Below, piece by piece: positions 13,338 through 22,497 of a DNA stretch of 22,497 nt. The notes under the pieces were generated by a model. It was given only the letters and a program-made list of their open reading frames with translations. It was not told the DNA's origin and made no database searches. Source of the DNA: a virus; IMG/VR virus record IMGVR_UViG_3300020450_000103, positions 1 to 22,497 of that record; one strand, written 5' to 3'. Position numbers and translations under genes: made by a program. How positions within the stretch are numbered: position 1 is the stretch's first letter; every line of letters begins with the position of its first letter.

Positions 13338-13676
13338 ATGAAGCGACTTTTTTGTTTAATACTGATGGGAGTGTTGGCCTCCCAAAACTCACTTTCGGGT
13401 GAGAGCCAATTACCTCAAGTAAAAAAACCATTTAATCTTAGTTATAATGATTTTGATTCTAAAGTACATCAACAAACTGAATTGATAGGTGATGTAATTG
13501 TTAGATTCATAATAGATGAGAATGGTAAAGTCATACAACCTGAAATAATTGATACCTTTAATCTAGTTTTGAATGATGTTATTATTGACAAGGTAAAGCA
13601 AATGAAGTTTTCACCACCACTTCAAAATGGCAGACCTGTCAAAGTTAGATACAAACTACCAATTGTATTCAAGTGA
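13338..13676 (+). CDS. Secreted or membrane-anchored TonB C-terminal domain protein
   Basis: A 112-residue protein. Residues 1-20 (MKRLFCLILMGVLASQNSLS) form a positively charged, hydrophobic export signal or short membrane anchor. Residues about 48-111 match the TonB C-terminal domain: GDVIVRFIIDENGKVIQPEI, a helix IIDKVKQMKFSPP, then NGRPVKVRYKLPIVF. In bacteria this domain lies in the periplasm and grips the TonB box of outer-membrane receptors to transmit energy from ExbB/ExbD. Here the usual Pro-rich spacer is missing (only about 25 residues link the two parts), so it probably cannot span the periplasm like a full TonB. It could supplement or block host TonB. ATG chosen with GGAG ten bases upstream. 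The stop overlaps the lipoprotein's GTG start (GTGA). No ExbB/ExbD is visible nearby. Confidence 0.85.
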   Translation: MKRLFCLILMGVLASQNSLSGESQLPQVKKPFNLSYNDFDSKVHQQTELIGDVIVRFIIDENGKVIQPEIIDTFNLVLNDVIIDKVKQMKFSPPLQNGRPVKVRYKLPIVFK

Positions 13677-14008
13677 AACATACATGGATAATGGTCAGTT
13701 TAATACTGGCCATTTCCTGTTCAAAAGAACCAATTGAGGAGATACACCCTGAACCAGTTATATTTACAGAAAGTACATCCGTATGCCATTGTTATAATAG
13801 TGCCGTGAGTATTTACAGAGCGTTATTGTGGGAAAATAAATTAGAATATAGACAGACATTTTGGAAGTTGAGAGAAGAATGTTTTGTCAATTATGGAGCT
13901 TTACTGTTTTATCCATCAGAGTGTAATAATCCATTTCATTTGGAGTTATTAGCTGACTCATTACGAAATGCGGGTATTGATATCAATGAAGGTATAAATC
14001 AACCATAA
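13673..14008 (+). CDS. Small cysteine-rich lipoprotein
   Basis: A 111-residue protein starting at GTG within the TGA of the TonB-like gene (GTGA overlap), so the two are translationally coupled. No separate ribosome binding site is seen. MKHTWIMVSLILAISCSKEP is a lipoprotein signal: basic start, hydrophobic core, then LAISC with Cys16 as the lipidated residue, followed by SKEP, a pattern common in Bacteroidota-type lipoproteins. The mature part has four more Cys (VCHC at 38-40, EECF near 70, SECN near 84), suited to disulfides in the periplasm, and otherwise looks helical. Function unknown. By analogy with phage T5 Llp, a small lipoprotein that blocks the TonB-dependent receptor FhuA, a superinfection-blocking role is possible. 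An outer-membrane spanin is less likely because no partner is seen. Confidence 0.75.
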   Translation: MKHTWIMVSLILAISCSKEPIEEIHPEPVIFTESTSVCHCYNSAVSIYRALLWENKLEYRQTFWKLREECFVNYGALLFYPSECNNPFHLELLADSLRNAGIDINEGINQP

Positions 14009-14241: not shown

Positions 14242-14991
14242 ATGGACTTAAATGCAATCAAAAAGCGTCTTAGTCAATTACAGACTACGAACAATCGTAC
14301 TTCCAGTCTTTGGAAACCACAACCAGGAAAAACACAAATAAGAATAGTACCCTATTCATTCAATAAGGATAATCCGTTTATTGAATTATTTTTCCATTAT
14401 AATCTTAACAATCGTTCTTATCTTTCACCAATCTCATTTGGTAGACCAGACCCGATTGAAGAGTTCGCACAGAAACTAAAAGGTTCTGGTAACAAAGAAG
14501 ATTATCAGTTGGCAAGAAAGTTGGAAGCAAAAATGAGAACTTTTGCACCAGTAGTTGTTCGTGGAGAAGAAAGACAAGGCGTTAGGTTTTGGGGTTTTGG
14601 TAAAACCGTTTACCAAGAACTATTATCAATAATTGCTGATCCTGATTATGGTGATATCACCGATCCTGTAAATGGTCGTGATGTTGTTGTGGAGTTTATC
14701 ACTGCTGAAGAAAGTGGTGCTAGTTTTCCAAAAACCAATATCAGAGTCAAGCCTAATCAAACTGCCATCTCTGATGATCCAGATGTATTGGAGTTAGTCA
14801 AAACACAACAAGAGATTAGTGAAATCTATCAAGAGTTGAGTTATGATGACTTAACAGGTGTATTAAATGAGTGGTTAAATCCAAGTGAAGATACAACAGA
14901 GGAAACTCAAGTATCAACTGCTGATTTGGCCGCTAGTAATAAAACAGTATCCAATACAACTGAAGCATTTGACGAACTATTTAATTCGTAA
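14242..14991 (+). CDS. 32: gp32-like single-stranded DNA-binding protein
   Basis: A 249-residue protein of the T4 gp32 family. It coats single-stranded DNA during replication, recombination and repair. The N-terminus (MDLNAIKKRLSQLQ) is the basic helical segment used for cooperative binding. The core (about 22-160) has the OB-type pattern LWKPQPGKTQIRIVPY, PFIELFFHYNLNNRSYLSP and VRFWGFGKTVYQELLSIIAD. After a short linker the C-terminus is acidic and Ser/Thr-rich, ending EAFDELFNS, as in the gp32 tail that contacts partner proteins. There are no cysteines at all, so the T4 zinc site is missing. Start ATG with GGAG seven bases upstream. It has its own leader and is followed by its own terminator. 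Confidence 0.9.
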   Translation: MDLNAIKKRLSQLQTTNNRTSSLWKPQPGKTQIRIVPYSFNKDNPFIELFFHYNLNNRSYLSPISFGRPDPIEEFAQKLKGSGNKEDYQLARKLEAKMRTFAPVVVRGEERQGVRFWGFGKTVYQELLSIIADPDYGDITDPVNGRDVVVEFITAEESGASFPKTNIRVKPNQTAISDDPDVLELVKTQQEISEIYQELSYDDLTGVLNEWLNPSEDTTEETQVSTADLAASNKTVSNTTEAFDELFNS

Positions 14992-15005: not shown

Positions 15006-15040
15006 ATAGAAGGCGTTTAAATACGCCTTCTATTTATTTT
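15006..15040 (+). terminator. Terminator after gp32
   Basis: ATAGAAGGCGT (15006-15016) and ACGCCTTCTAT (15023-15033) form a perfect 11-bp stem around a 6-base loop, followed by TTATTTT. It lies between the gp32 stop (14991) and the UvsX start (15051). It would let gp32 be made at levels different from the downstream recombination operon. Some read-through into uvsX is likely, as no clear new promoter fits in the ten bases left. Confidence 0.8.
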
Positions 15041-15050
15041 GGAGATAAGA

Positions 15051-16148
15051 ATGTCAGTACATGATGTTTTGGCCGATACTTTGGCCGATAGTTTAAATAA
15101 AAAATTCAAAGATACCAAAGTAGCATACTTTTTAGATGGTAGTGATTCTACTCCTACTGATATTAAAGAGTTTGTTTCAACTGGTAGTTCAATGTTAGAT
15201 TTGGCCATATCCAATAGGCCAAATGGTGGAATAGCTGTGGGTAGAATCACAGAAATTAATGGATTAGAATCGAGTGGTAAGTCTTTACTTGGTGCTCACA
15301 TCCTAGCAGAAACTCAAAAGAAGGGTGGTGTCGCAGTTTATATCGATACCGAGACATCCGTTTCTCAAGAGTTTTTAGAGGTTATAGGAGTAGATTTCAG
15401 TAAAATGTTATATCTACATTTAGAAACTGTTGAGGATATATTCGAGGCCATTGATGAAATCGTTACAAAGGTAAGGGAATCCGACAAAGATAGATTGGTT
15501 ACAATATTAGTTGATTCACTCGCAGCCGCATCCACTAAAGTAGAAATGGAAGCCGACTTTGAGAAAGATGGTTGGGCAACCGCTAAAGCAATTATCATAT
15601 CAAAAGCTATGAGAAAGATTACTCAAATGATTGGTAGACAGAAAATTGCTTTGGTATTTACAAACCAATTAAGACAAAAACTCGGTGTGATGTTTGGAGA
15701 CCCGTGGACAACAAGTGGTGGTAAAGCATTACCATTTCATGCATCTACTCGTATTAGATTGAAAAATATGGGACAGATAAAAGATACAAAGAAAAATGTA
15801 TTGGGTATGAAGTGTAGAGCTCAAATTGTAAAGAATAGATTAGGACCACCATTAAGGCATGCCGACTATGATATGTATTTTGATAGAGGTATCGATAATT
15901 ATGGTGCTTGGTTAACAGTATTGAAAGAACATAAACTCATCAAGAGTGGTGGTGCTTGGTATACTTTAACAGACCAACATGGTGAAGATCACAAGTTTAT
16001 GTCTAAAGATTGGGAAGAGTTGATTACGGGTAATGATGAACTACGAGAATACATTTACAAACTCATTTGTGATAAAGTCATTTTACAATACAAAGAAAAA
16101 CTTGGTATTGATGATGTCGAGTTTACAGATGAGGTAATTGGTGACTAA
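15051..16148 (+). CDS. uvsX: UvsX/RecA-like recombinase
   Basis: A 365-residue RecA-family strand-exchange protein that forms filaments on gp32-coated single-stranded DNA for recombination-dependent replication. Walker A is GLESSGKS (71-78); the catalytic Glu lies in YIDTETS (98-103); Walker B is TILVDS (151-156); and the DNA-binding L2 region is FTNQLRQKLGVMFGDPWTTSGGKALPFHAS (203-232, given here in part). I chose ATG 15051 because GGAG at 15041-15044 sits six bases upstream; a TTG at 15039 would overlap it. It overlaps the next gene by eight bases. Context with gp32, exonuclease and helicase fits UvsX rather than a host RecA. T4 needs UvsY as mediator; none is recognisable here. Confidence 0.92.
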   Translation: MSVHDVLADTLADSLNKKFKDTKVAYFLDGSDSTPTDIKEFVSTGSSMLDLAISNRPNGGIAVGRITEINGLESSGKSLLGAHILAETQKKGGVAVYIDTETSVSQEFLEVIGVDFSKMLYLHLETVEDIFEAIDEIVTKVRESDKDRLVTILVDSLAAASTKVEMEADFEKDGWATAKAIIISKAMRKITQMIGRQKIALVFTNQLRQKLGVMFGDPWTTSGGKALPFHASTRIRLKNMGQIKDTKKNVLGMKCRAQIVKNRLGPPLRHADYDMYFDRGIDNYGAWLTVLKEHKLIKSGGAWYTLTDQHGEDHKFMSKDWEELITGNDELREYIYKLICDKVILQYKEKLGIDDVEFTDEVIGD

Positions 16149-17208
16149 ACAAAGATATTTATCCATACTGAATGAGATAAAAAAATCAGGCGGTAAAATA
16201 GATAGTGGCGAACCAAATGACTCGGTTTTATTAATAGACGGATTAAATACTTTTATCAGAGTGTTTTCCGCAATACCAACTACTAACGAGGATGGTGTCC
16301 ATGTTGGTGGAATAGTTGGTTTTTTAAGGTCATTAGGTCATGTCATAAGAATGGTTGGTCCCACAAGAACCATTATAGTTTTTGATGGTAAAGGTGGGTC
16401 CAACCGCCGTAGAAAAATCTTTCCTGATTACAAAAAGGGTAGAAAGATGTCGGTTCGGTTAAATAGAACTATGGGTGTATCTTTGACTCGTGAGGATGAA
16501 CACAAGATGATGATTGCACAATTAAATAGGGTTGTGGAATACTTGGAGTGTTTACCAGTCACAGTAGTGAATATGTCCAATATAGAAGCCGATGATGTGA
16601 TTGGATATTCAGCTAAACACATATTCACTAAATCTAAAAATACCATATTATCTACTGATAAGGATTTTCTACAATTAGTAGATGAAAATATTAGAGTGTA
16701 TTCACCAACAAAAAAGAAAATGTATGATGAAGAAAAGGTCTTGGAAGATTATGGTATAACTTCAAGAAACTTTTTACTATACAGAATATTAGATGGGGAT
16801 AAATCTGATGGTATACCTGGTATAAAAGGTGCAGGTTTTAAAACATTGGTTAAGATGTTTCCGTTCTTTACATCACCACACCAACATTCAATAGATGATT
16901 TGTTAAAGAGTGCTACGGTACAAAAAGACAAATTCAAATTGTGTAGAGAAATAGTGGAGTCAAAAGAACAATTGGAAATGAATAAGTTACTGATGGACCT
17001 AGATGATTTGAATATTTCTGGTAATTCCAAATTGAAAATACAAGATATTATGTCAACACCAATTCAAAGATTAATCAAACACAAGTTCCAAAAGATGTTT
17101 TTGGAAGATAAATTATATACAGCCTTACCTAACTTGGATAGTTGGATACATACAACATTCAATAAGTTAAATAGGATGGCGGAGAAAACACATGGGAAGA
17201 AAGCGTAA
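16141..17208 (+). CDS. 5'-3' exonuclease / flap nuclease (T4 RNase H-like)
   Basis: A 355-residue nuclease of the FEN1/5'-exonuclease family. It removes RNA primers and 5' flaps in lagging-strand synthesis. Metal-binding acidic residues lie in LLIDGLN (30-36, Asp33), FDGKGG (81-86, Asp82), IEADDVIG (148-155), STDKDF (171-176) and GDKSDGIPG (219-227), which begins the helix-three-turn-helix (IPGIKGAGFKTL). This is the full active set. The start is probably GTG 16141, because GAGG (16131-16134) is six bases upstream; TTG 16138 is possible. It overlaps uvsX by eight bases and the next gene by 17. In T4, rnh and gp32 act together; here it follows uvsX in the same operon. Confidence 0.88.
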   Translation: MTKQRYLSILNEIKKSGGKIDSGEPNDSVLLIDGLNTFIRVFSAIPTTNEDGVHVGGIVGFLRSLGHVIRMVGPTRTIIVFDGKGGSNRRRKIFPDYKKGRKMSVRLNRTMGVSLTREDEHKMMIAQLNRVVEYLECLPVTVVNMSNIEADDVIGYSAKHIFTKSKNTILSTDKDFLQLVDENIRVYSPTKKKMYDEEKVLEDYGITSRNFLLYRILDGDKSDGIPGIKGAGFKTLVKMFPFFTSPHQHSIDDLLKSATVQKDKFKLCREIVESKEQLEMNKLLMDLDDLNISGNSKLKIQDIMSTPIQRLIKHKFQKMFLEDKLYTALPNLDSWIHTTFNKLNRMAEKTHGKKA

Positions 17209-17377: not shown

Positions 17378-18450
17378 ATGTAGATTATGATGTATTAACT
17401 AAATTTACAGATGTAAATGAGTTAGATGCAGCTTATCATGAAGTGGTTAATAATTTACAAGAAACTGATATTGAGTATGGTATTGATATCATTTTTCAAT
17501 ATTATCGCAAGCATGGGTTTCCTTATGTTAGTATAAGGGAAGAAGAAAAACATGAACACATGAGAAAGTTACAGAAGTTTGATATTGATAGTATTTTTAT
17601 GAACGATAAAATAATACAAACCATGCATGGGTTGAGATTGGCATGGACATACTTTCCCCATTGGGTTAATGTTCAATGTGGAACTTCCAAAATAACACCA
17701 ATGGAAGCATTTAAGAATGATGATAAGTTTAGGTCGGTGATTAGAAAATGTTGGAAATGGTGTAGTACAAATTACGGAACTGATACAAGTTTCAAAAATA
17801 CATTCCACGAAAATAGATTACGACAATCATTAAAGATTTATACTGGTGTTCAGGCTGTAAGTAATTTTAGACCGACAGCTGCCAAAACAATATATGAAAA
17901 CTTTGGTGGAGATGGAACAATATGGGATATGTCTTGTGGGTGGGGTGGTCGTTTGTTAGGTTTTTTATCCGCTAAAAATACCAAACATTATATAGGTACT
18001 GAACCATCCACAAAGACTTTTGAAGGTTTATTGAAAATAAAAAAAGATTTTTCGTATTTGGGAAAAAAAGTTGATATATATTGTAAAGGGAGTGAAGTAT
18101 ACAAACCAAAAAAAGAATCACTCGATTTATGTTTTACATCACCACCTTATTTTGATACTGAAAAGTATGCAAATGAAGATACACAAAGTTTTATCAAATA
18201 TCCAACACAATCAAAATGGGTAAATGGATTTTTGAGAAAGACTATTCAGAATTGTTATAATGGATTGAAAAATAATTGTTATATGTTAATCAATATCGCT
18301 AATACACCAAAATATAAATTTATAGAAGAAGAAACCGTAAAGATTTCAAATGATTTAGGGTTTAAACAAGAAGAAACTATTCAACTAACTTTATCAAGTG
18401 TCATGGGAGCAGGATATAAGTATGAACCAATATTTGTTTTTAAGAAATGA
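17374..18450 (+). CDS. DNA methyltransferase (N4-cytosine or N6-adenine type)
   Basis: A 358-residue protein. The catalytic motif IV is TSPPYFDTE (255-263), the [DNS]PP[YFW] signature of amino-group DNA methyltransferases. The S-adenosylmethionine motif I is WDMSCGWGGRLLG (184-196), with YIGTEPSTKTFEGL (206-219) as the next strand and acidic turn. The first 180 residues have no methyltransferase motif and probably carry target recognition (note FQYYRKHGFPYVSI, 41-54). It may protect phage DNA from host restriction or mark it for packaging or replication timing. No cognate restriction enzyme is nearby. It sits between the exonuclease-linked small protein and the replicative helicase, joined to both by ATGA overlaps, which ties it to replication. 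Confidence 0.85.
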   Translation: MNVDYDVLTKFTDVNELDAAYHEVVNNLQETDIEYGIDIIFQYYRKHGFPYVSIREEEKHEHMRKLQKFDIDSIFMNDKIIQTMHGLRLAWTYFPHWVNVQCGTSKITPMEAFKNDDKFRSVIRKCWKWCSTNYGTDTSFKNTFHENRLRQSLKIYTGVQAVSNFRPTAAKTIYENFGGDGTIWDMSCGWGGRLLGFLSAKNTKHYIGTEPSTKTFEGLLKIKKDFSYLGKKVDIYCKGSEVYKPKKESLDLCFTSPPYFDTEKYANEDTQSFIKYPTQSKWVNGFLRKTIQNCYNGLKNNCYMLINIANTPKYKFIEEETVKISNDLGFKQEETIQLTLSSVMGAGYKYEPIFVFKK

Positions 18451-19808
18451 GTGAGTCATTAGTTCAATATGGAACATCGTTCCAAAGTAAATTGATAGTA
18501 AGTTTGATGATGGATGTAAAATATACTACAACCATTATTGATATATTAGATATTAGTTATTTTGACTCTGATGCAAATAAGTTTTTAGTCAAATCAATAA
18601 AGGATTATTTTTTAAAGTATAAATCACCACCAACTATTGAAGCCTTGAAAGTAATGATTGATGAAGTACAAACTGATGTATTAAAAACTGCAATCGTGGA
18701 TTCGTTACGACAAGTGTGGACACATAGAGAATCACCAGATTTAGATTTTGTTAAAGAAAAATCATTAGAGTTTTGTAAAAATCAAGTGATGAAGAATGCA
18801 ATCATGCAATCAGTTGATTTATTAGAACAACAAAACTATGACGAGATTAAATCTATGATTGATGGTGCTATGAATGCTGGTGTGGAACGAGACATAGGAC
18901 ACGAATACATTACAGGATTGGAAGAGAGATTATCCAAACAGACCAGAGTAACACAACCTACCAAGTGGGATAGTGTGAATGAATTGATGGATGGTGGATT
19001 AGCTGGTGGTGAGTTGGGTGTCATCGTTGCACCTGCTGGTATTGGTAAGTCTTGGACACTACAGGCCTTGGGTACAGAGGCAATCAAACGAGGTAAAACA
19101 GTAATATACTATACTTTAGAATTGAATGCACAATATGTTGGGTTGAGATATGATACAATTATTAGTGGACAACCAACTGGCAACCTACAATATTACAAAG
19201 AAGAAGTAATGAAGGCTATTGGAAAACTAAAGGGTAATTTAATTATCAAATATTATCCAACACGAACTGCTAGTGTGAATACATTAATAGGTCATTTACA
19301 ACAATGTGAAATGCAAGGTGTTAAACCTGATATGGTATTGGTAGATTATGCTGACATTATGAAATCAACATCCAAGTTTACAGAAAAACGACATCAAATA
19401 GGTCATGTGTATGAAGAACTACGAGGTATGGCTGGTGAATTTGATATACCAATATGGACAGCTTCACAGGCCAATCGTTCCGCATTAGAAGAGGATGTAA
19501 TCGGTGCTGAGAAAGTAAGTGAGGATTATTCAAAAGTTATGACTGCAGATTTTGTAATGAGTATGAGTAGAAAAGTAGAAGATAAGATTGCAAATACAGG
19601 TAGATTTCATGTAATTAAAAATAGATTTGGTCCTGATGGTATTACATTTCCTGCTACTATTAATACCAATACAGGTACTATTGAAATTTATGATACAAAT
19701 ACACAAGGGGGACAAGAGGTACAAGGGAAGATGAATAATGCTGATGAATATATTAGAAAGACATTGGCACAAAAAAAGAAAGACTTTGATGGTGGTGGGT
19801 TTGAATAA
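18447..19808 (+). CDS. 41: Replicative DNA helicase, DnaB/gp41 type
   Basis: A 453-residue RecA-fold hexameric helicase. The N-terminal helical domain (about 1-150) carries the collar. Walker A is APAGIGKS (195-202), Walker B is MVLVDYADIM (296-305), and the following sensor segment IWTASQANRS (336-345) matches DnaB motif H3. YYTLELNAQYVGLRYD (221-236) fits the H1a region and the arginine finger part lies in KNRFGPDG (about 389-396). In T4, gp41 unwinds the fork and binds primase gp61; no primase gene is seen in this window. It is joined to the methyltransferase by an ATGA overlap. The last gene of the operon, it is followed by a weak terminator-like hairpin. Confidence 0.92.
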   Translation: MSESLVQYGTSFQSKLIVSLMMDVKYTTTIIDILDISYFDSDANKFLVKSIKDYFLKYKSPPTIEALKVMIDEVQTDVLKTAIVDSLRQVWTHRESPDLDFVKEKSLEFCKNQVMKNAIMQSVDLLEQQNYDEIKSMIDGAMNAGVERDIGHEYITGLEERLSKQTRVTQPTKWDSVNELMDGGLAGGELGVIVAPAGIGKSWTLQALGTEAIKRGKTVIYYTLELNAQYVGLRYDTIISGQPTGNLQYYKEEVMKAIGKLKGNLIIKYYPTRTASVNTLIGHLQQCEMQGVKPDMVLVDYADIMKSTSKFTEKRHQIGHVYEELRGMAGEFDIPIWTASQANRSALEEDVIGAEKVSEDYSKVMTADFVMSMSRKVEDKIANTGRFHVIKNRFGPDGITFPATINTNTGTIEIYDTNTQGGQEVQGKMNNADEYIRKTLAQKKKDFDGGGFE

Positions 19809-19914: not shown

Positions 19915-21930
19915 ATGTTGCACACAAAATTTAAGTTGTCGGAAAATTTTATAAACAAATATAAAAGAAGGAAGGCACCATTTGGTTTTAATGGTTTAGG
20001 TGAATTAGTCTATATGAGAACCTACTCAAGAATTAAAGAAAATGGAAAGAACGAAAGATGGTGGGAAACTGTACAAAGGGTTGTAGAGGGAACTTATACC
20101 ATGCAAATGAATTGGATTGAATCACATCAGCTGGGTTGGAATCCTTGGCAAGCTCAAAAATCAGCACAAGATATGTATGAAAGAATTTTTACAATGAAGT
20201 TCTTACCACCAGGTCGTGGTTTATGGGCTATGGGAACACCAATTACAGAAGAAAAAGGGTTGTATGCTGCACTAAATAATTGTGCATTTGTATCTACTAA
20301 AACACTAAAGGATGATTATGCTAAACCATTTTGTTTTCTGATGGATGCTAGTATGTTGGGTGTTGGAGTAGGATTTGATACAAAAGGTGCTGGTGAAATA
20401 GTAATAAAGGGTATACAAAAAGATAGAGAACACCAAGTATATGAAATACCAGATACTCGTGAAGGTTGGGTAGAGTCATTGAAATTATTATTAGAAAGTT
20501 ATTTTCACGGTCAAGCACCAGTAGAATTTGATTATTCAAAAATACGACCAGCAGGAGAACCAATAAGTGGTTTCGGTGGTGTGGCAAGTGGTCACGAACC
20601 ATTATTAGAAGTTCATGAAGATATAAGAAAGGTATTAGAAAAGAATAGTGGAGAACCAATTACAATAACAACCATTGTTGATATAATGAATTTAATTGGT
20701 AAGTGTGTTGTTGCTGGTAATGTTAGAAGAACTGCAGAAATTGTATTCGGTGATCCTGACTCGGAAGAATACTTGGATTTAAAAAACTATAAAGTAAATA
20801 AACATAGAGAAACTTATGGATGGACAAGTAATAATAGTATATTCGCTGAGTTGGGTATGGATTATACTGCCGCTGCCGAACGAATTGTGGATAATGGTGA
20901 GCCTGGATTTGCGTGGTTAGAAAATATGAGAAAGTATTCTCGTATGAAAAATGGTGGTGATAATAAAGACCATAGGGTTGCTGGTGGTAATCCTTGTTTG
21001 GAACAATCATTAGAGAGTTACGAATTGTGTTGTTTGGTAGAGACATTTCCAAGTAACCACGATTCATTTGAGGATTATGCAAGAACACTAAAATATGCAT
21101 ATTTATATGCCAAAACAGTTACATTAGGTAGAACACATTGGGCTGATACCAATAGAGTTATGTTAAGAAATAGAAGGATTGGATGTAGTGTAAGTGGGGT
21201 TGCTCAGTTCATTACCAATCGTGGTTTAGGTACTTTGAAAGATTGGTTGAATGATGGTTATGATGTGATACAAAAATGGGACAATCAATATTCAGATTGG
21301 TTTGCAGTTCCTAAATCAATCAAAACAACAAGTGTAAAGCCATCAGGCACGGTTTCGTTACTTGCAGGAGCTACTCCTGGATTACATTATCCAGAGTCGA
21401 GGTTTTATATTAGAAGAATAAGGTTATCCAAACACTCTGAATTATTAGAGCCGTTACAGAAAGCAGGTTACAAAGTTGAACCAGCTTTTGGTTCGGAAGA
21501 TACAACTATGGTTGTTGAGGTTCCTGTCGATGTTGGAGAGGGTATTAGAACAGCGGCCGAACTATCTATTTGGGAACAATTCGGTTTGGCCGCTTTCTTA
21601 CAAAGACATTGGGCAGACAATCAAGTAAGTTGTACGGTTACATTTGATCCTGAAACAGAGGCAAACCAAATTGCTCCATGTTTAAATTATTATCAATATC
21701 ATTTAAAAGGTATAAGTTTATTACCACGACATGACTATGGTGCTTATCAACAAATGCCTTATGAAGCTATTGATGAAAAAACTTATGAAAAAGAAGTTAA
21801 GAAACTTGGTAAATTATCTTTCGGTGTTATTAAGAATGAAGAGGCCGAAATAGATAAATTTTGTAATAATGACTCTTGTGAAATTACACCAATGACAGGT
21901 GATAATGACGACCAAGATTACGCAAGTTAA
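19915..21930 (+). CDS. nrdJ: Adenosylcobalamin-dependent (class II) ribonucleoside triphosphate reductase
   Basis: A 671-residue monomeric-type class II reductase that turns ribonucleotides into deoxyribonucleotides with a cobalamin-made thiyl radical, needing no oxygen and no small subunit. Key residues: Cys123 in NNCAF, the radical Cys361 and Glu363 in NPCLEQ, the partner Cys372 in ELCCLVE (11 residues on, as in the Lactobacillus enzyme), and the C-terminal redox pair in FCNNDSC (650 and 655) for recharging by thioredoxin. PSGTVSLLAGATPGLHYPES (476-495) is the phosphate-binding loop region. The family otherwise reaches about 740 residues; here the shorter length falls in the expected range for phage versions. 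It needs adenosylcobalamin from the host or from uptake, which gives meaning to the receptor gene that follows. It is transcribed from its own gap. Confidence 0.93.
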   Translation: MLHTKFKLSENFINKYKRRKAPFGFNGLGELVYMRTYSRIKENGKNERWWETVQRVVEGTYTMQMNWIESHQLGWNPWQAQKSAQDMYERIFTMKFLPPGRGLWAMGTPITEEKGLYAALNNCAFVSTKTLKDDYAKPFCFLMDASMLGVGVGFDTKGAGEIVIKGIQKDREHQVYEIPDTREGWVESLKLLLESYFHGQAPVEFDYSKIRPAGEPISGFGGVASGHEPLLEVHEDIRKVLEKNSGEPITITTIVDIMNLIGKCVVAGNVRRTAEIVFGDPDSEEYLDLKNYKVNKHRETYGWTSNNSIFAELGMDYTAAAERIVDNGEPGFAWLENMRKYSRMKNGGDNKDHRVAGGNPCLEQSLESYELCCLVETFPSNHDSFEDYARTLKYAYLYAKTVTLGRTHWADTNRVMLRNRRIGCSVSGVAQFITNRGLGTLKDWLNDGYDVIQKWDNQYSDWFAVPKSIKTTSVKPSGTVSLLAGATPGLHYPESRFYIRRIRLSKHSELLEPLQKAGYKVEPAFGSEDTTMVVEVPVDVGEGIRTAAELSIWEQFGLAAFLQRHWADNQVSCTVTFDPETEANQIAPCLNYYQYHLKGISLLPRHDYGAYQQMPYEAIDEKTYEKEVKKLGKLSFGVIKNEEAEIDKFCNNDSCEITPMTGDNDDQDYAS

Positions 21931-21982: not shown

Positions 21983-22020
21983 ACAGGCAGACGGCACACC
22001 TGTAGAAAAATGTGCCTTTT
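21983..22020 (+). promoter_or_regulatory. Pseudoknot or terminator element between nrdJ and the receptor gene
   Basis: GGCACA (21993-21998) pairs with TGTGCC (22011-22016) and is followed by TTTT, a possible terminator of the reductase gene. ACAGG (21983-21987) can also pair with CCTGT (21999-22003), which lies in the loop of the first hairpin. Taken together the two stems (5 and 6 bp) form an H-type pseudoknot layout with an A-rich third loop AGAAAAA, ending 18 bases before the receptor's ribosome binding site. It may be a regulator of the receptor or only a terminator. No known riboswitch consensus was recognised. Confidence 0.45.
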
Positions 22021-22046: not shown

Positions 22047-22497
22047 ATGAGATATCGTAATCTAATACTTTCATCGATGATGATGGTCGGAGTTGTCTTC
22101 GGACAAGTTGTGACTGGATTTGTTGGTGAAGGTGAGAAACCACTTGTAGGTGCGAATGTTGTAGTCGAAGGTACTACTAAGGGTGGCGTCACAGATAGTG
22201 AAGGTAAATTTACTATTGAGACAGGCTCAGGTACTTTTGATATAACTGCTTCCTACATTGGATACATAACCCAAACTAAATCTGTTAGTGTTGGGGATAT
22301 AGTGTCCAGCGTTAGTTTCAACTTAGAAACTGATGTTGTGGCACTTTCAGCTCTTGAAGTTTTGGCTTCTCGTGCTGATGAAAAAACACCTGTTGCTTAT
22401 ACAACTGTGTCTAAAGAAGAGATGGAAATTCGTCTTGGTTCACAAGATATTCCAATGTCTCTGAATATGACACCATCAGTATATGCGACTGGTCAAG
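22047..22497 (+). CDS. TonB-dependent outer-membrane receptor, N-terminal part (runs off the window)
   Basis: An open frame of 150 codons with no stop, so the gene continues past the edge. ATG with AAGGAG (22035-22040) six bases upstream. Residues 1-20 (MRYRNLILSSMMMVGVVFGQ) form a signal peptide with likely cleavage near the Gly-Gln. Residues about 21-95 are a carboxypeptidase-regulatory-like beta-sandwich: GEKPLVGANVVVEGTTKGG, TDSEGKFTIETGSG, ITASYIGYITQTKS. From about 103 the plug begins: VLASRADEKTPVAYTTVSKE, then LGSQDIPMSLNMTPSVYATG, typical of FCB-group receptors. Full proteins of this type form a 22-strand barrel that imports large nutrients with TonB energy. Blocks of 60 bases counted by hand here hold 21-29 G/C against about 20 in nrdJ, hinting at recent transfer from a host. 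The substrate is not visible. Confidence 0.85.
   Translation, partial: MRYRNLILSSMMMVGVVFGQVVTGFVGEGEKPLVGANVVVEGTTKGGVTDSEGKFTIETGSGTFDITASYIGYITQTKSVSVGDIVSSVSFNLETDVVALSALEVLASRADEKTPVAYTTVSKEEMEIRLGSQDIPMSLNMTPSVYATGQ

Follow-up and report, generated by a model that had tools for sequence, protein, structure and literature searches.

A TonB-dependent receptor gene and its pseudoknot RNA leader in a lineage of marine T4-like phages

The receptor gene and its surroundings

The window (the whole stretch of DNA analysed here) is an entire IMG/VR virus record of 22,497 bases, and its end cuts a gene encoding a TonB-dependent receptor (TBDR). The features of the locus are as follows.

13338–13676, + strand: small secreted protein with a TonB C-terminal domain (TonB_C), 112 amino acids (PF03544 above gathering score, 41.0 bits against 24.6)
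13673–14008, + strand: putative lipoprotein, cysteine-rich with a lipobox-like LILAISC, from translation; overlaps the end of the TonB-domain gene
14242–14991, + strand: T4 gp32-like single-strand DNA-binding protein, SSB (phrog_1192)
15039–16148, + strand: UvsX-like recombinase (phrog_97, E 3e-73)
16138–17208, + strand: 5'-3' exonuclease (phrog_107; PF02739)
18447–19808, + strand: DnaB-like replicative helicase (phrog_19, E 1e-73)
19915–21930, + strand: nrdJ, adenosylcobalamin-dependent ribonucleoside-triphosphate reductase (NCBIfam TIGR02505 above cut-off; phrog_367)
21983–22016, + strand: candidate H-type pseudoknot RNA, 34 nt, from covariation (ACAGG-CAGAC-GGCACA-CCUGU-AGAAAAA-UGUGCC)
21983–21987 / 21999–22003: pseudoknot stem S1, ACAGG/CCUGU, five pairs
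21988–21992: pseudoknot loop L1, CAGAC
21993–21998 / 22011–22016: pseudoknot stem S2, GGCACA/UGUGCC, six pairs
22004–22010: pseudoknot loop L3, A-rich, AGAAAAA
22035–22040, + strand: Shine-Dalgarno AAGGAG with a 6-nt spacer to the TBDR ATG, conserved in relatives
22047–22496, + strand: TBDR, first 150 residues, cut by the contig end; signal peptide, CarbopepD_reg_2 N-terminal extension, EVLASRA segment and start of the plug

T4-type replication genes were represented by UvsX, DnaB and the gp32-like SSB in the window and by DNA polymerase B and the clamp loader in relatives. Among the 12 long relatives a T4 Gp23 capsid protein was detected in just one (the 130-kb G008, E 6e-76); this major capsid protein was not seen in the window or in the other 11, and none of these records is rated complete. 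The NrdJ type was confirmed as the adenosylcobalamin-dependent RTPR. The TBDR gene starts with an ATG at 22047, 116 bases past the nrdJ stop at 21930, and its frame remains open through the contig end. The CarbopepD_reg_2 domain was matched on the window fragment at E 6e-17, and the EVLASRA segment is what we take to be the TonB box of the phage TBDR. The GC content of the TBDR part is 0.40 against 0.335 for the window, whilst its GC3 of 0.24 equals that of the neighbouring phage genes, indicating that the excess reflects amino-acid composition and not recent foreign DNA; raised GC was therefore discarded as a mark of recent transfer.

An initial annotation, made from sequence alone, had described a TBDR with a signal peptide, a carboxypeptidase-regulatory-like domain, a plug start and a strong ribosome binding site lying this distance past nrdJ on a T4-like phage genome, and all of this held. 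The GC value above that of the flanking phage genes also held, the argument for foreign origin failing on GC3, and the pseudoknot RNA and the TonB-domain gene had been overlooked.

Relatives, fold and origin of the receptor

A scan of IMG/VR identified at least 92 other stretches encoding TBDR relatives, the best 80 of which were fetched. At most loci the order SSB, UvsX, exonuclease, DnaB, nrdJ, TBDR was observed, and in relatives genes for DNA polymerase B, glutaredoxin and the clamp loader lay downstream of the receptor gene. In relatives at 90–96% identity the open frame continued as a long receptor gene, which was complete if the contig reached far enough and had phage genes after it. Complete copies were unbroken, encoding about 905–940 amino acids from the chosen start and ending in a GLxVNF-like C-terminus, with a G-rich hairpin terminator just after the gene in nearly all loci inspected. 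Each of the 12 long relatives (67–130 kb) carried a single TBDR copy with the exception of G251, which had none, and one copy per contig was found in 12/13 contigs. Since dozens of independent assemblies share the nrdJ-TBDR junction, with phage genes after it, the TBDR of the window is neither an assembly chimera nor host flank. Of the doubts raised with the initial annotation, those of a chimeric join and of bacterial chromosome downstream thus failed, and a frame broken just past the contig edge, which would have marked a remnant, was not seen in relatives with complete copies, which are intact. The full barrel and downstream phage genes looked for were met in relatives, the window record itself not being extendable.

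In a survey based on nrdJ, 53 loci had over 1.5 kb of sequence beyond that gene, and the TBDR was present at 47 of them; three others retained the RNA leader with the TBDR lost beyond about codon 12, and three had neither. TBDR-deleted loci comprised L161, L171, L182, L341, L342, L347 and L320, the leader and about 12 codons remaining in one lineage. L320 resembles a deletion scar, only the last receptor codons and the terminator appearing to be left after nrdJ. As some lineages have deleted it, the gene is not essential; these few losses are secondary. At further loci (L036–L040, L050–L052, L073, L075 and L076) the RNA-TBDR unit was found without an adjacent nrdJ hit, following a membrane-protein gene in those checked (L036, L050 and L073). 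A glutamine synthetase-like gene was observed directly after nrdJ at L004 (8921–9913), L309 and L349, with the Pfam match shown for L004, where this gene separates nrdJ from the RNA-TBDR unit. At L062 (6881–9916) nrdJ contains an intein bearing an HNH endonuclease.

The window copy breaks off inside the plug, and the plug test was run on the full-length relative L005, which is 90% identical to the window TBDR over its 150 residues; the Plug domain (PF07715) scored 51.6 bits against a cut-off of 23.9 (E 1.5e-13). An AF2 model of L005 built from an 88-sequence alignment (pLDDT 86.0, pTM 0.82) showed a full plug-and-barrel, a first model from phage sequences alone having been poor (pLDDT 55) until cellular homologues were added. 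With its C-terminal beta-barrel closed over the plug the model meets the structural criterion for a TBDR, and the signal peptide and TonB box required were met as judged by sequence only. Matches to PDB structures spanned residues 100–936 at Z 32–40 (BtuB, Fiu, FyuA and others), Fiu, BtuB and FyuA reaching Z 37–40. These matches fix the fold but not the substrate because they are unspecific, BtuB not being separated from siderophore receptors. The SusC/RagA family test (TIGR04056) was not met, at 46 bits against a curated cut-off of 368, and in a library of viral structures a single protein, SusC-like and from an uncultured marine phage, gave a convincing match over the full length. The full-length product is a TBDR with a complete barrel, the barrel being predicted by the model. 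Neighbours of the cellular orthologues were genes unrelated to transport and gave no hint of substrate.

The nearest cellular homologues were from Candidatus Neomarinimicrobiota, at 57–65% identity. In a FastTree phylogeny of 102 proteins all 30 phage copies and one cellular contig formed a single clade (support 1.0) inside the Marinimicrobia receptors; the ancestor of the phage TBDR was captured from Marinimicrobia. The phage TBDR resembles receptors of Marinimicrobia (SAR406) in its succession of CarbopepD_reg_2, Plug and barrel, in identity at this level over the full length, and in the plug signature NGVPxNDMENGWVYWSNWDG and the EVLASRA segment, the latter identical in phage and host copies. 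It differs in that the phage copy sits in a replication block behind a pseudoknot RNA that appears to be phage-specific. The cellular contig in the phage clade (L196, JAFMFP010000048.1) carries tandem TBDRs, the first of which nests among the phage copies; no genes of the window phage were detected on it, and gene exchange or mis-binning may explain its placement.

Marinimicrobia are apparently the hosts of this phage lineage, a likely inference that rests on the phylogeny of the TBDR itself and on a single contig, from a distant phage, that was binned with a Marinimicrobia genome. That contig (L441, G145:C100) is T4-like with a similar replication gene order; it gave no receptor match, and a QueC-like ORF was noted by eye at its end.

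The phage TBDR is under strong purifying selection, with a median dN/dS of 0.18 for the whole gene, 0.09 for the plug, 0.17 (0.169) for strands and 0.16 (0.164) for long loops. Loop identity was 0.71 between phage copies, 0.63 between phage and host and 0.61 between hosts, plug and strand identities having been matched for the phage-phage and host-host comparisons. Remodelling has thus not been concentrated in the long loops, a result that speaks against a decoy receptor and for a working importer.

The pseudoknot RNA and the TonB-domain protein

The exact pseudoknot element was present at 81/81 TBDR loci found by protein and not by pattern (window included), and a pattern scan recovered it on at least 119 contigs. 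Amongst 195 RNA instances, drawn from loci that overlap and are not all independent, the next gene was the TBDR in 187; five were cut by contig ends and three had a TBDR deletion. Two interleaved stems without a spacer between S1 and S2 are supported by covariation, the H-type structure being inferred from sequence: across 56 distinct RNA sequences 97.4% of cells were paired, compared with at most 58% in slid controls, and 38 double-change cells were counted against 8.6 ± 2.3 in shuffles, with double changes at five of the 11 pairs. Because the search pattern fixes many positions, loci found through nrdJ serve as an independent check, and at such loci outside the pattern S1 reads ACUGG/CCAGU, a further compensatory change. 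The distance from the end of the RNA to the TBDR start codon was 24–39 nt (mostly 28), with the Shine-Dalgarno between, and the RNA stays with the receptor despite an intervening glutamine synthetase gene (L004) or a different upstream gene (L036, L050 and L073). One RNA match per contig was found in the two long relatives tested.

No gathering match to the element was obtained in Rfam, only chance-level matches up to E 10, and no covariance-model match to preQ1-I or any other Rfam riboswitch; pseudoknot-free models may lack sensitivity. Plain minimum free energy (MFE) folding of the leader was not unusual (z -0.22), as expected since it cannot represent a pseudoknot. With up to one mismatch allowed, 245 Marinimicrobia genomes yielded no copy of the element, and a loose form of its pattern was not found in 80 cellular TBDR loci, where scanning for pseudoknots in general returned nothing beyond chance hits without information; these absences ruled out a host source for the RNA. 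An upstream TTYRCATAC motif, considered as a promoter, was dropped with three occurrences in the window against 1.6 expected.

Riboswitches of the preQ1-I and SAM-II type are small translational H-type pseudoknots, and the phage RNA resembles them in its 34-nt size, H-type topology, A-rich third loop and position before the ribosome binding site; it differs in having no Rfam match, a six-pair S2, no inter-stem spacer and a single gene association. The leader pseudoknot of T4 gene 32 mediates autoregulation of gp32 and lies upstream of the start codon in a phage mRNA. The present element is likewise a pseudoknot ahead of a start codon in a phage mRNA, and its T4-like phage also encodes a gp32-like SSB, but the gene that it precedes is that of the receptor and not that of the SSB. 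Its likeliest role is to control receptor translation in cis, with regulation inferred and the trigger unidentified, and it is a candidate for a compact, phage-specific new regulatory-RNA family.

The TonB_C protein was encoded in seven of the 12 long relatives, and 54 IMG/VR contigs encode relatives of it (the loci examined being window 13338–13676, L376–L384 and L385–L438). All eight of the eight aligned copies have a short hydrophobic, signal-like N-terminus with no evident long TonB anchor or linker, and the protein may, by inference, compete with TonB in the periplasm or serve there as an adaptor. The long contigs yielded no ExbB, so the phage TBDR depends on host ExbB. The TonB-domain gene does not adjoin the TBDR and is kept in G251, the contig that lost the TBDR. 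The putative lipoprotein, possibly an envelope or exclusion factor, was near the TonB-domain gene in only 4/54 relatives. A conserved secreted protein of ~200 amino acids was near it in 25/54, and an MscS beta-domain (mechanosensitive-channel) protein was observed beside it at L378 (545–880) and L384 (483–827), the Pfam match being shown for L378.

Proposed role of the receptor and alternative explanations

Sequence-level evidence establishes the phage residence, intactness, origin and selection of the TBDR, and the RNA element with its tight linkage to it. The reading that we favour, by a modest margin, is that a widespread marine T4-like lineage carries the TBDR as a gene of its own and retains it as a working outer-membrane importer, with import activity, host identity and translational regulation inferred. 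In this view the TBDR, whose ancestor came from Marinimicrobia, the likely hosts, would be made during infection, probably on a transcript shared with nrdJ or on one that starts immediately after that gene. It would be exported by Sec and inserted in the outer membrane, where host ExbB/ExbD/TonB would energise it and it would supply the cell with a scarce solute during phage replication. The level of TBDR translation would be set, separately from NrdJ, by the 34-nt pseudoknot before the ribosome binding site. Against this reading stand the lack of expression, localisation or transport data and a substrate that cannot be inferred, and a short lytic cycle may leave an outer-membrane protein little time to act. 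Of the roles suggested by the initial annotation, nutrient import is favoured over an altered receptor, as loops are not preferentially changed and purifying selection acts on the whole gene.

Superinfection control, in which the phage TBDR would replace or swamp the host receptor and block adsorption of competing phages or of the phage's own progeny, is considered unlikely. In its favour, TBDRs are common phage receptors, phage proteins binding or blocking one are known, T5 pb5-FhuA and Llp-FhuA structures were among the fold matches, and the window also encodes the TonB-domain protein and the small putative lipoprotein. Against it, the long loops, which are adsorption sites, evolve no faster than the strands (dN/dS 0.164 vs 0.169), the phage-host loop difference is no greater than that between hosts, and a decoy would not need an invariant plug and TonB-box segment.

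Take-over of the TonB axis also appears improbable. Here the secreted TonB_C protein would compete for TonB boxes, shutting down host TBDRs, TonB-dependent phages and bacteriocins, with the phage TBDR as partner or exception. In E. coli, C-terminal fragments of TonB present in the periplasm interfere with TonB function, and the recurrence of this protein in the window and its relatives without an evident long anchor is consistent with such a role. However, the phage TBDR has a TonB-box segment identical to that of the host and therefore should be blocked too, and the TonB-domain gene lies apart from the TBDR and persists in TBDR-less G251, with fragmentary contigs limiting a test of co-occurrence.

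Similarly doubtful is cobalamin supply, by which a BtuB-like TBDR would feed the B12-dependent NrdJ and the RNA would be a small cobalamin- or nucleotide-responsive switch. The reductase is adenosylcobalamin-dependent, nrdJ adjoins the TBDR in most relatives and BtuB structures were among the best fold matches; yet siderophore receptors match as well as BtuB, the RNA-TBDR unit occurs without a neighbouring nrdJ hit at the loci given above, and the RNA has no Rfam cobalamin riboswitch match. Functionless host cargo or an assembly join, suggested by the abundance of TBDRs amongst host genes and by the loss of the TBDR from some phages, is all but excluded by the same junction in dozens of independent assemblies, the phage genes downstream, strong purifying selection and a dedicated RNA leader and terminator.

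The importer reading can be extended to a regulated nutrient-import module run by a lytic phage lineage, in which translation of a captured receptor would be gated by a new, phage-specific pseudoknot switch whilst a phage TonB-domain protein would rewire the host TonB machinery during infection; this bolder proposal is possible but less likely than not.

A SusC-like TBDR gene proposed as an auxiliary metabolic gene has been described in the marine megaphage Mar_Mega_1 (PMC9723777). This and the SusC-like protein of an uncultured marine phage (BFVD A0A8D9FQQ5) are alike to the present case in placing a TBDR gene on a marine phage. Mar_Mega_1 differs in that it is not T4-like, identity in the fold alignment is about 11%, and no RNA leader is mentioned in the passages of that paper bearing on the TBDR. 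In an annotated phage collection only two records, both unannotated and from the human gut, matched most of the TBDR, with identity of about 30%; megaphages matched part of it. Full-text search of open-licence PMC papers found no TBDR of a T4-like phage, no phage-encoded TonB protein and no RNA-TBDR arrangement; the earlier remark that no established T4-like phage was known to carry a TBDR thus held in that literature, a megaphage TBDR having already been published.

The influence of phages on host metabolism is attributed chiefly to enzymes acting inside the cell. A conserved, selected TBDR with a dedicated RNA leader would imply phage control over import across the outer membrane of the infected cell, and, the apparent hosts (Marinimicrobia) being abundant uncultured ocean bacteria, this may bear on how carbon and micronutrients move through infected cells. 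The RNA itself is a new candidate regulatory RNA that comes with its own gene partner, on which it can be tested.
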